A stretch of DNA of 21,567 bases from a virus. The position numbers were made by a program, and so were the translations under genes. This document shows, piece after piece, positions 18,698 through 21,567 of this stretch (the stretch's first letter is position 1; every line of letters starts with the position of its first letter). The notes beneath the pieces were generated by a model that searched no databases, had not been told where the DNA came from, and worked only from the letters and a program-made list of their open reading frames with translations. The stretch spans positions 1-21,567 of IMG/VR virus record IMGVR_UViG_3300034198_011125; one strand, 5' to 3'.

Positions 18698-18948
18698 ACT
18701 TAGTAATAGCTTCACTAGCTGTATATAAAGTGTTACAACTTATTGACTCGTTGTTGCCAAAAGAGGCAATGCCATGGGTCAAAATATTGGCTTCAATAGC
18801 CCTATCCTACATTTCGTGTTTTGCCATAGACACGGATAATATACTTGTAGATGGTGCTGCAATTGCAGCTTTATCTGGTACAGTGCATTCAGCACTCCGC
18901 CTATTGACTCTTAGTGGAGATGCTGCACACCGCAAGAGTCTTCGATAG
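18694..18948 (+). CDS. Small membrane protein, holin candidate
   Basis: The protein has 84 residues. Hydrophobic segments at about 2-20 (NLVIASLAVYKVLQLI), 28-46 (WVKILASIALSYISCFAI) and a weaker one at 52-72 (VDGAAIAALSGTVHSALRLL) suggest two or three membrane passes. The C-terminus is basic (HRKSLR). The start overlaps the gpI stop by ATGA (18694-18697). Size, topology and place after the tail genes fit a holin, which would open the membrane at lysis. No endolysin gene is adjacent in this window, so another membrane role cannot be excluded. Confidence 0.75.
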   Translation: MNLVIASLAVYKVLQLIDSLLPKEAMPWVKILASIALSYISCFAIDTDNILVDGAAIAALSGTVHSALRLLTLSGDAAHRKSLR

Positions 18949-18955
18949 GAGCGTT

Positions 18956-19729
18956 ATGGCAAAGACAAATACGTACGGAATTCTTGGTGGGGCAAGTGTC
19001 CCTAAGGAAGTAATTAATGCTTCACTTAATGATATTGCAAAACATGCTTTTGTAGTCCCCTGGTATGGTTCAAAGACAATATCTCCATCAATGGAATGTG
19101 TCTATGACTGGATGTTAGATAATGAAATTGACTACGAGATAGTTGCTTCTTCAGAAGGCCGCCCACTTCCAAAAGCATTAAGTAAAAATGCTTTAAATGT
19201 AACTTTGGTAGAGGATGTAGATTCTACAGTAATTGATCTTTTGGTTGACTGTAAGCCTGGGATTGCTTTAATTATGTGGGATGAAACCAATCCTGAGCGT
19301 TCACTTAATCTTGCCAATAGTACAATTAATCGTGGCCTTGAATCATTAGAACTTACTAATGGTTTGTGCCCAATTGTAGTTGACCCGCCAGAACAAAATG
19401 AAATAACCCTGTCAGTAACAGAGGTATCTGAAATGGAAGACCATCTGGACAAAGTTCTTGATTTAGATGTAACTAGCTTTGATAGAGAAACTCTTGAAAT
19501 TATGCCAGCTGCATCGGTAAAAAGAATGGCAGCTAACGCTGGGTTTCTTGTAAAGAACAAAGAAGAAGCAATTGACGCTTTGACTGGTTCAACCAAAGTC
19601 AAAGAAGACATTGAAATTGGTTCAATACTGTTGTTATTTAATGACGGGACTGAACTTGGTTTTGGAATGAACAAAGATCTTTTGAAAAAGATTATGAATT
19701 TAGTTGTAGATAGTCAATCAGACGAGTAA
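18956..19729 (+). CDS. Protein of unknown function with Rossmann-like N-terminus and SAP-like C-terminal segment
   Basis: The protein has 257 residues. The ATG at 18956 is preferred because TAGGAG (18946-18951) precedes it, and it avoids overlapping the upstream gene; the frame extends back to 18914. The first 150 residues alternate strands and helices: TYGILGGASVP, then VYDWMLDNEIDYEIVASSEG, then IDLLVDCKPGIALIMWDETN, then LELTNGLCPIVV, which suggests an alpha/beta (Rossmann- or SLOG-like) nucleotide-binding fold. Residues about 198-225 (LEIMPAASVKRMAANAGFLV, then KNKEEAIDAL) resemble a SAP-like helix pair. No catalytic motif is evident and I do not recognise the family. It is the last plus-strand gene before the terminator. 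Confidence 0.82.
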   Translation: MAKTNTYGILGGASVPKEVINASLNDIAKHAFVVPWYGSKTISPSMECVYDWMLDNEIDYEIVASSEGRPLPKALSKNALNVTLVEDVDSTVIDLLVDCKPGIALIMWDETNPERSLNLANSTINRGLESLELTNGLCPIVVDPPEQNEITLSVTEVSEMEDHLDKVLDLDVTSFDRETLEIMPAASVKRMAANAGFLVKNKEEAIDALTGSTKVKEDIEIGSILLLFNDGTELGFGMNKDLLKKIMNLVVDSQSDE

Positions 19730-19762
19730 CATTGTCCTTCACATACGGTTCCCAAACCAAGC

Positions 19763-19788
19763 AAAAGGCCCCCTTGCGGGGGCCTTTT
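19763..19788. terminator. Strong bidirectional intrinsic terminator between convergent units
   Basis: AAAAGGCCCCC (19763-19773) pairs perfectly with GGGGGCCTTTT (19778-19788) around a TTGC loop, an 11-bp stem. The plus strand continues TTTTGTTATT, a good T tract. The minus strand reads TTTTGC, which is weaker. It lies 33 bp after the plus-strand stop at 19729 and 35 bp past the last minus-strand gene, so it can end transcription from both sides. Confidence 0.92.
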
Positions 19789-19823
19789 GTTATTCAATAG
19801 TAACTACTATTAAATTAGTGAGT

Positions 19824-19937
19824 TCACTTCTTCTTAGGAGCTGCCTTCTTAGCTGGCGCTGCTTTCTTCTTTGCGGGACCCTTGCCGTAACCAGGATCTT
19901 TCTTGTCTTTGAGACCACATCCACATGCTGCACACAT
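19824..19937 (-). CDS. 37-residue protein: Cys-rich head and H1-like Lys/Ala/Pro tail
   Basis: Last gene of the minus-strand operon. It reads MCAACGCGLKDKKDPGYGKG followed by PAKKKAAPAKKAAPKKK. Cys 2, 5 and 7 form a CxxCxC cluster that could bind metal or form disulfides. The tail is a histone H1-like AKKAAPKKK stretch, strongly basic and likely to bind DNA or other polyanions. GGAGG inside the end of the upstream gene, about 9 bases from the ATG, serves as ribosome site. Small proteins with this type of Cys-rich start are seen in phages, but I do not know their function. The start and stop are unambiguous in this frame. Confidence 0.72.
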   Translation of the reverse strand: MCAACGCGLKDKKDPGYGKGPAKKKAAPAKKAAPKKK

Positions 19938-19939
19938 AC

Positions 19940-20104
19940 TTACTTACCTCCCTTCTTAGACGCTTTCATATTGTCAATAAGATTAGGATAAGGGCGACCC
20001 GCGGCCTTGGCGGCGGCTTTTGCCTTGGCCTTCTGCTCGGGGGTTAGTTTCTTATCAGACTTAGTGGGGTCTTTGGTTTCCCATACCTTCTTTTTAGCAA
20101 CCAT
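19940..20104 (-). CDS. 54-residue Lys/Ala-rich basic protein
   Basis: It begins MVAKKKVWETKDPTKSDKKL and continues TPEQKAKAKAAAKAAGRPYP, ending NLIDNMKASKKGGK. The middle is a Lys/Ala helix. The ends are basic and flexible. The start ATG overlaps the upstream stop (TGATG, 20102-20106), which indicates translational coupling. The 5' end shares GCTAAAAAGAAG with the gene at 20403-20567, perhaps by duplication. The stretch at 19981-20040 is GC-rich with GCC alanine codons, unlike the AT-rich tail genes. A DNA- or RNA-binding role is plausible from composition only. Confidence 0.72.
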   Translation of the reverse strand: MVAKKKVWETKDPTKSDKKLTPEQKAKAKAAAKAAGRPYPNLIDNMKASKKGGK

Positions 20105-20403
20105 CAGCAATCCCAAGCACGAAGAGATTTATTAATACGGGAATCAGGATCGTTGGCAGTTTTAGAAGAAGTGTTCTTCTTCTTCATACCTTCCATACGA
20201 GCACAAAAAGAATCACGACGAGCTGCTGATTTCTCAGACTTAGCAGCTTGTTCTTTCTTTACCGGTGGCTTAAGGTCACTACCGGGATGCTCCCGTTCAT
20301 AAGACTTACGACCCTTTTCGTTAAGTCCACCCTTAGGGTCTTTTCCTTCAGAACGTGACCAAGCAGCGGTCTTTTTAGCTGGTGCTTTTTTCTTTTCTGC
20401 CAT
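20104..20403 (-). CDS. 99-residue basic phage protein (DUF6321-like)
   Basis: The start ATG at 20403 overlaps the upstream stop as TGATG; a GTG one codon earlier (20406) is less likely. The N-terminus is a lysine-rich tail (MAEKKKAPAKKTAAW). The body contains SRSEGKDPKGGLNEKGRKSY, then HPGSDLKPPVK, then ARRDSFCARMEGMKKK, and ends DSRINKSLRAWDC. This combination (PKGGLN-GR-SY, RR-SF-RM, SLRAW) matches a domain of unknown function that I recall as DUF6321 from phage genomes, to be confirmed. No enzyme motif is visible. The high charge, many Arg/Lys and lack of hydrophobic core suggest nucleic-acid binding, which is inference. Confidence 0.82.
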   Translation of the reverse strand: MAEKKKAPAKKTAAWSRSEGKDPKGGLNEKGRKSYEREHPGSDLKPPVKKEQAAKSEKSAARRDSFCARMEGMKKKNTSSKTANDPDSRINKSLRAWDC

Positions 20404-20567
20404 CACTTCACCTTCTTAAGATTAGGGTTTTTCTTTTTAGCTGCTGGTGAAGCTTTACGAGAACTGGCTGCAAGAATAGCACCGGCACTTTCCTTACTCA
20501 CACCAGACTTACGAGCAATTTCTTCCTGTACTTTTTCAAATCCAGGATGCTTCTTTTTAGCTGCCAT
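20403..20567 (-). CDS. 54-residue Lys-rich small protein
   Basis: Reads MAAKKKHPGFEKVQEEIARK, then SGVSKESAGAILAASSRKAS, and ends PAAKKKNPNLKKVK. The middle (EEIARKSGVSKESAGAILAA) looks like a short helical domain with a helix-turn-helix flavour, flanked by basic tails with AAKKK at both ends. The ribosome site AAGGAG overlaps the Dps stop codon, and the ATG is 9 bases after that stop. The stop overlaps the next start. I recall similar small phage proteins with the 'AGAILAASxRKAS-AAKKKNPxLKKV' pattern, but no function is known to me. Confidence 0.78.
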   Translation of the reverse strand: MAAKKKHPGFEKVQEEIARKSGVSKESAGAILAASSRKASPAAKKKNPNLKKVK

Positions 20568-20576
20568 GTTGGCTCC

Positions 20577-21011
20577 TTACTTGGTTGAGGCTCGGAGTTG
20601 CCAAGCCCATTTTTGATGCATGTCAATACGTTCTGCCAAGAAATTAGCAATGCCCTGTTCGTCAGCTTTTATAGATACATCAAAAGTATCTTTAAGAACA
20701 CCCAATAGTGCGTCATTAGCAGTTAGTAAAGAATTTGCCATTGCTTTAGGGTTAGGTTGTACATCTTTAAATTCAATAGTTCTTAAATCAAGAAACTTCT
20801 GAAGACTAAACGGGGCATAATCATCTAACTTACGGATGTTTTCAGCAATTGGGTCAATTGAACTATAAGCATCTGAATAGATTGTTTCAAATAGTTCATG
20901 ATATTGACTAAAATCTGGACCCTCTACGTTCCAATGATAACCATGTGCCATAAAATAGAAAGTGACTACATCTGACATTAGCACTTTGAGCGACTTGATT
21001 AAATCTTTCAT
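20577..21011 (-). CDS. dps: Dps-like ferritin (DNA-protection / iron-storage protein)
   Basis: The protein has 144 residues from the ATG at 21011, which follows GGGAG by four bases; the frame is open further upstream to 21167 but that part overlaps the divergent gene and is not protein-like for the family. The four-helix Dps signature is present: HGYHWNVEGPDFSQYHELFE, then SSIDPIAENIRKLDDYAP. All four ferroxidase ligands match Dps spacing: H26, H38 (12 apart), D53 (15 apart) and E57 (4 apart). Dps assembles as a 12-mer shell, oxidises iron with peroxide and can bind DNA. It lacks a long lysine-rich N-terminal tail of the DNA-binding type. Here DNA-binding tails may be supplied by the four lysine-rich proteins downstream, which is a hypothesis. 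First gene of its operon. Confidence 0.93.
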   Translation of the reverse strand: MKDLIKSLKVLMSDVVTFYFMAHGYHWNVEGPDFSQYHELFETIYSDAYSSIDPIAENIRKLDDYAPFSLQKFLDLRTIEFKDVQPNPKAMANSLLTANDALLGVLKDTFDVSIKADEQGIANFLAERIDMHQKWAWQLRASTK

Positions 21012-21087: not shown

Positions 21088-21567
21088 ATGATCACTAGTC
21101 CAATGGGAACCAGTAACGTTTTTGGTGGACGCTTTTTAGCAGTCCCTGAGTGGGCAGTGCCCCTCATTTTTAAGCATGGTCAACCACGCGATCTGCAGGT
21201 TTTAACATGCCTTGTTTCAATGATGCACATCCATAATAAATCTGTTTCGGCGTCTATTCAAGAGATTGCTGATGCATCGTACACTTCAAAAGAAACTGTA
21301 AAACGATCACTCAAATGGCTCTCAGAGCAACAAATAATCACAACAAAATTACGACAAAAACCAAAACCAAACACTTACATTATTAACTACACACAACCAG
21401 CAATAGGGTCACCCATGACCCTATCAACCACCAACACAACACCCTTAATAGGGTCACCCATGACCCTACCCACTACCCCCAATGGGGTCACCCATGACCC
21501 TATCAAAATGAACATAACACCAGCACAAGTAACAAAAGCGCTGATCTCTAGAGAAATAGTAATAATA
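21088..21567 (+). CDS. Winged-helix DNA-binding protein, partial (replication initiator or regulator)
   Basis: At least 160 codons are open to the right edge without a stop. ATG 21088 has GGAG six bases upstream. The N-terminus contains GGRFLAVPEWAVPLIFKHG, then QPRDLQVLTCLVSMMHIHN. Residues about 52-100 form a helix-turn-helix and wing: SASIQEIADASYTSKETVKR, then SLKWLSEQQIITTKLRQKPK, then PNTYIINYT. This is the arrangement of initiator-like and MarR/GntR-like DNA-binding proteins, the helix being ETVKRSLKWL. The following 50 residues (IGSPMTL repeated) are low complexity and derive from the three DNA repeats. It is divergent from the Dps operon. The role as initiator or repressor remains open. 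Confidence 0.8.
   Translation, partial: MITSPMGTSNVFGGRFLAVPEWAVPLIFKHGQPRDLQVLTCLVSMMHIHNKSVSASIQEIADASYTSKETVKRSLKWLSEQQIITTKLRQKPKPNTYIINYTQPAIGSPMTLSTTNTTPLIGSPMTLPTTPNGVTHDPIKMNITPAQVTKALISREIVII
21403..21502. repeat. Three copies of a 20-bp inverted repeat (iteron- or operator-like)
   Basis: TAGGGTCACCCATGACCCTA occurs at 21404-21423 and 21449-21468, and as TGGGGTCACCCATGACCCTA at 21483-21502. Each has 8-bp arms (TAGGGTCA and TGACCCTA, one mismatch in copy 3) around the loop CCCA; copy 1 extends to 9 bp arms at 21403-21424. Start-to-start spacing is 45 and 34 bp, so copies 1 and 2 share one reading frame and copy 3 is in another, although all three lie in the open frame of the same gene. 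Conservation across frames indicates selection on the DNA itself. Confidence 0.85.

Follow-up and report, generated by a model that had tools for sequence, protein, structure and literature searches.

A lake-phage Dps encoded with lysine-rich small proteins, and its possible association with the phage head

Introduction

Why does a lake phage encode a Dps directly ahead of four small and very lysine-rich proteins, and at what stage would such a set act? Phage Dps is already known, as is DUF6321, a domain found at this locus, as a Pfam family. The DPS of 'Gratiaviridae', of other gut phages and of Lactobacillus plantarum phages has been proposed to limit oxidative damage, and the accessible parts of those reports describe it without a lysine-rich cassette or a head-protease fusion (PMC8008677, PMC6669764). 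Here we analysed the locus in the 21,567-nucleotide stretch of phage DNA that carries it (the window) and in its relatives, and we suggest that dps and its partners may be parts of the virus particle rather than serving solely as enzymes produced in the infected cell.

Results

The cassette occupies the reverse strand of the window. It begins with dps (20577..21011), encoding a 144-aa ferritin-like Dps without terminal tails, followed after a 9-bp gap by s1 (20403..20567; 54 aa, net charge +11). The s2 gene (20104..20403; 99 aa, net +13), which encodes a DUF6321 domain, overlaps s1 by TGATG, and s3 (19940..20104; 54 aa, net +11; phrog_34011) overlaps s2 in the same way; s4 (19824..19937; 37 aa, net +10) follows after 2 bp. 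All of these sizes, positions and junctions agreed to the base with the preliminary description of the locus, as did its picture of four very lysine-rich, basic proteins: lysine makes up 19-32% of s1-s4 compared with 2-12% in the window's other genes, and net charges run from +10 to +13. Dps itself is acidic (net -6, pI 5.1). Sequences resembling ribosome-binding sites precede dps, s1, s2 and s4, that of s3 being weak, and a stem-loop terminator with a 12-pair stem (19762..19789, reverse strand) lies 3' of s4, between the cassette and a convergent structural operon. The spacing and the terminator suggest that dps and s1-s4 would share one transcript.

The coding status of the cassette was assessed by a codon comparison of dps, s2, s3 and s4 with four relatives, s1 being left out. 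Against one of these relatives, L006, synonymously and non-synonymously changed codons numbered 49 and 18 in dps, 36 and 2 in s2, 22 and 5 in s3, and 14 and 2 in s4, clearly pointing to purifying selection on the four genes. The s1 protein is kept at 64-81% identity among relatives.

The window is part of, or in the cassette region identical to, an 89.8-kb phage record, where a 519-aa terminase-sized gene, portal, major capsid and then tail genes run on the opposite strand toward the cassette and where dps and a replication-initiator-like gene point away from each other. The cassette of the window's phage thus neighbours the replication-initiator gene and is no part of the head module, whose genes occupy the other strand. 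Two neighbouring features were observed. A very acidic 271-aa protein (18914-19729; net -23) is encoded convergently with the cassette and is kept beside it in relatives; it had no PHROG match. Inside the replication-initiator-like gene, three copies of a repeat (21389-21511) have the core GGGTCACCCATGACCCT, which is itself palindromic and which we take to mark an iteron-like origin, as in lambda O.

Pfam, PHROG and solved structures all identify the window protein as a genuine Dps (Ferritin PF00210, 7.9e-15, 55.5 bits against a cut-off of 24.5; phrog_3636, 1.4e-25; solved Dps 8ff9, 2.7e-21). Its ferroxidase positions H26, H38, E42, D53 and E57 have Dps-canonical spacing, and all five are present. 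The earlier claim of complete ligands therefore holds for the window Dps but not for its clade: in an alignment of relatives (A1) H26, H38, D53 and E57 are invariant, whereas position 42 is A, S, G or E, with A, S or G in many. The claim that Dps lacks a lysine-rich tail can be extended, since none was found at either end among the relatives aligned in A1 or in the window protein. A tail-less Dps with separate basic partners is supported, from these sequences, as the family-wide state.

A tree was built of Dps from viral contigs and 18 cellular-genome sequences; in it the former made up one branch with a long stem and support of 100/100. Inside this branch, at 60% identity, fell the Dps of a contig from a gammaproteobacterial lake MAG (L499), possibly a phage contig binned with its host. 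The Dps of S-SRM01 was considered as a relative and set aside: it is too divergent (26%, long branch), lies outside the viral branch and has no cassette, with no basic families nearby.

How closely the small proteins are tied to Dps was examined in 65 dereplicated viral Dps loci. Further small basic families, s5-s9, are present in relatives' cassettes, and 103 genes of the nine families were found within 1.8 kb of dps, compared with 2 in the other 603 kb. Without exception the counted genes shared the strand of dps, and the density near dps was about 116-fold that in the rest of the loci. None of 1000 random anchors gave a count as high as that observed, although these anchors were drawn from all ORFs, overlapping non-genes among them, which makes their mean only a rough background. 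At least one small family was present within 1.8 kb of dps in 40 of the 65 loci, with none nearby in the other 25, and none of the nine was found near Dps in 80 cellular-genome Dps loci. On the Dps tree the association requires 6 changes as compared with 28 in shuffles, indicating that it recurs but is clustered on the tree.

The expected co-occurrence of the small families with Dps was borne out in one direction only. They are linked to the viral Dps clade, but they are mostly found without Dps: dps was present in 4 of 78 loci fetched with s3, 1 of 80 fetched with s1 and 12 of 78 fetched with s2, counts that short contigs make lower bounds. The scattering that the preliminary description had named as evidence against its proposal thus occurs in part. 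Since most small-family loci are without Dps, we regard these families as a wider aquatic-phage toolkit recruited by the viral Dps clade; s2 was present in 60 of the 78 s3-fetched loci. Nor did a fixed operon of Dps and four partners survive, as s2-s9 shuffle in varied order and lie upstream or downstream of dps. In two close relatives another gene is inserted between dps and s2, one of 210 aa (L010:10442-11074) and one of 169 aa that is methyltransferase-like by eye (L016:5242-5751), showing that the site accepts other cargo.

Among the partners, s2 matched DUF6321 (PF19846) over the whole model (1-72 of 72) at 1.7e-25, with 89.9 bits against a cut-off of 28.5, and its AF2 model is helical (pLDDT 82). 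No solved structure was found for s2, and no DNA-binding fold, a PDB search with the DUF6321 fold giving no match up to an E of 10. Against a viral library most of the named matches to this fold were DUF6321 proteins; one protein labelled 'Ferritin/DPS protein domain' matched at E 0.05, hinting at a Dps-DUF6321 fusion, although the match fell short of significance. In L382, DUF6321 and s3 are fused in a single gene directly after dps, and s5 and s6 also occur fused.

In large cyanophage-type proteins DUF6321 is nearly always the C-terminal domain. It forms the C-terminus of S-SCSM1 ORF29 (1.3e-40), whose detection in the virion we take from the record's label, 'virion protein', and in divergent form (7e-16) that of S-CREM2 gp137, for which the virion proteome gave 4 unique peptides. 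DUF6321-ending proteins are thereby reported in the virions of two cyanophages, both unrelated to the window's phage, and the accessible part of the S-SCSM1 paper gives 45 proteins by mass spectrometry (PMC9602691, PMC10665884). No paper naming DUF6321 was found in the open-access literature, and for DUF5872, DUF6496, DUF5661 or 'HVA1 family protein' there was one, on an algal virus.

The s1 family reads GFxxVQxxIAxxxGVSxExAGAILAxSxRKASPAAKKxNPNLKKV (alignment A3), with 80 loci fetched and 454 relatives confirmed in its scan; PHROG gave weak matches only. Its AF2 model (pLDDT 81) predicts a helical hairpin with a basic C-terminus, and the best HU match in Foldseek was to the N-terminal helices of HU at a non-significant E of 1.8. 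As this structural resemblance is weak and the sequence search returned no HU, s1 is at best a doubtful HU relative. The s3 protein matched phrog_34011 at 8.1e-22, its family reading KLTPEQKAKAKAxAKAAGRPYPNLxDNM with 377 relatives among viral contigs. Isolated phages yielded no match for s3 or s4 and three records only for s1; s4 was also without a PHROG match.

A feature absent from the preliminary description is the N-terminus of s4, MCAACGCG, a metal-type MCxxCGCG motif followed by a lysine-rich tail. The motif is kept among the listed s4 copies found by HMM, one of which reads MCTACGCD at its last position. A pattern scan found an MCxxCGCG protein in 102 stretches, where invariance of the motif follows from its being part of the scan pattern. 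In 22 of 33 of these loci with enough flank dps lay within 5 kb and in 11 it did not, the loci being non-independent. In E. coli HypB an N-terminal CXXCGC binds nickel with high affinity (PMC7055735), and s4 carries this cysteine pattern at its own N-terminus. The motif is short and homology is not claimed, s4 being without the GTPase domain of HypB and bearing a lysine tail; metal binding by s4 is suggested by the pattern.

In contrast to the window's own phage, distant relatives encode Dps in the head module or fuse it to head proteins (L374, L375, L592, L080, L360, L364 and L376). In L374 an XkdF-type head protease (PF14550), DUF6496 and Dps form one protein, whose locus has a head-morphogenesis protein on the upstream side and the major capsid gene on the downstream side. 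L375 and L592 encode fusions of Dps to the portal/head-maturation-protease family, and in L593 Dps follows a weakly head-maturation-protease-like N-terminus. In L609, L610, L619 and L620 Dps is the N-terminus of mosaic proteins, which have a phrog_9737 domain in common with a DUF6321 protein of cyanophage S-B43. These architectures were drawn from the best matches per scan, and long ORFs in L337, L358, L595 and L598 were left uncounted as they may only be start-codon extensions. Fused Dps is about 50-58% identical to the window Dps and mostly falls in a neighbouring clade with modest support. A free dps is found between the terminase and portal genes in L080 and, judged by the same gene sequences, in L360 and L364, and near a major capsid gene in L376; free Dps of the L080 type is nested near cassette-type Dps in the tree.

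Other domains were met in these surroundings. In L372 (7581-9977) and L377 (2807-5827) Dps is fused in frame to a zeta-toxin-like kinase domain, both proteins having a common N-terminal domain and a KHPGHPxQKVH motif. In L497 (7402-10374) a 990-aa head-morphogenesis protein with an Alt-like ADP-ribosyltransferase C-terminus is encoded directly upstream of a protease-Dps fusion.

Discussion

The preliminary description supposed that the small proteins might compact or shield the phage or host genome; the comparative evidence points to the phage head. The Dps-protease fusions, the placement of free dps and the virion reports for DUF6321 favour a head-associated role for the cassette, though each of them concerns a relative. 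We put the chance that the cassette encodes a head-associated protein set, in virion or procapsid, at a little under even, a virion location in the window's phage being extrapolated from these relatives. The broader proposal, that some freshwater tailed phages build a ferroxidase into the virion head and so shield the packaged or entering genome from iron damage, is advanced more tentatively still. An acidic, tail-less Dps together with four proteins of +10 to +13 could place a ferroxidase at the phage genome. The lysine-rich s1-s4 would attach to phage DNA, whether packaged or entering the cell, to the acidic shell of Dps, or to both, and would supply in trans the DNA affinity absent from Dps. 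On the broader proposal Dps would enter the procapsid as a domain of the head-maturation protease or free, held by its lysine-rich DNA-binding partners. Dps would oxidise ferrous iron with peroxide and store it, and the cysteines of s4 might provide a metal site near the complex on the DNA. The phage genome would thereby suffer less damage from iron-generated hydroxyl radicals, be it inside the particle, on ejection or while particles assemble. That s1-s4 bind DNA, that they contact Dps, and that metal and peroxide are handled in this way are all predictions from sequence.

The set might instead act as an auxiliary oxidative-stress module, present only in the infected cell and never in the virion, that lowers free iron and peroxide and protects replicating DNA. 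Published accounts of the DPS of gut and Lactobacillus phages interpret it in this way, as far as the accessible parts of those papers go (PMC8008677, PMC6669764). That the window cassette adjoins the replication initiator, away from the head module, agrees with this reading, as does an S-SRM01 Dps that manages without basic genes. The reading leaves unexplained, however, why Dps of the same clade is fused to head-maturation proteases, why dps lies between terminase and portal and why DUF6321 occurs in reported virion proteins, and we consider it rather unlikely. The fused forms in a head context also speak against a takeover of the host nucleoid, in which the lysine-rich proteins would coat or compact the host chromosome and stop transcription, with Dps assisting compaction. 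The high positive charge of these proteins and the non-significant match of the s1 model to HU helices could be counted in its favour. Their AKKAAPKKK tails and charge also resemble those of histone-H1-like proteins. But the window Dps lacks the sort of basic tail with which E. coli Dps binds DNA, and s1 is without a sequence match to HU, so that a nucleoid takeover appears improbable.

A last view is that the small genes are mobile or accessory passengers, which would gather at a permissive location where the structural operon ends and have no functional connection with Dps. The order, number and identity of small genes do vary between close relatives, the 169-aa and 210-aa genes are inserted at the same place, and most loci of these families lack Dps. 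Against this view stand the recurrence of the Dps link on the tree, the common orientation of all counted genes with their steep rise in density near dps, and the fusion of these domains into neighbours of Dps (L382, L374). We hold a passenger cluster to be very improbable, and return to a head-associated set as the preferred reading.

How does such a set compare with what is known? With Dps at large the window protein has in common the ferritin-like domain (PF00210, PHROG 3636), the canonical ferroxidase spacing and matches to solved structures. It differs in belonging to a virus-specific branch without basic tails and with a variable fifth ligand, encoded with separate basic genes and, in relatives, fused to head proteases. 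The DUF6321 proteins of cyanophages (phrog_727, phrog_4689) have the same domain as s2; there it is part of large mosaic proteins, some reported in virions, whereas s2 stands alone beside Dps. Tailed phages are known to carry internal head proteins, such as IPI-III and Alt of T4. The analogy we propose is that of cargo carried with the genome; no homology is claimed, the virion location in the present case is our own suggestion, and here Dps relatives are fused to the protease class that matures the head. Literature searches found no paper on a virion-borne phage Dps, and neither the cassette nor the fusions of Dps to head proteases turned up in the papers searched, which were open-access only, so that an earlier description elsewhere is possible.

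So far, phage Dps has been treated as a metabolic accessory that serves while the cell is infected. A viral Dps clade with head-protease fusions, or encoded beside lysine-rich domains whose family has been reported from virions, suggests that some phages equip the particle itself with an iron-oxidising enzyme. If true, this would be a starting hypothesis for what DUF6321 does, and likewise several other lysine-rich families, common in aquatic phages, to which no function has been assigned.
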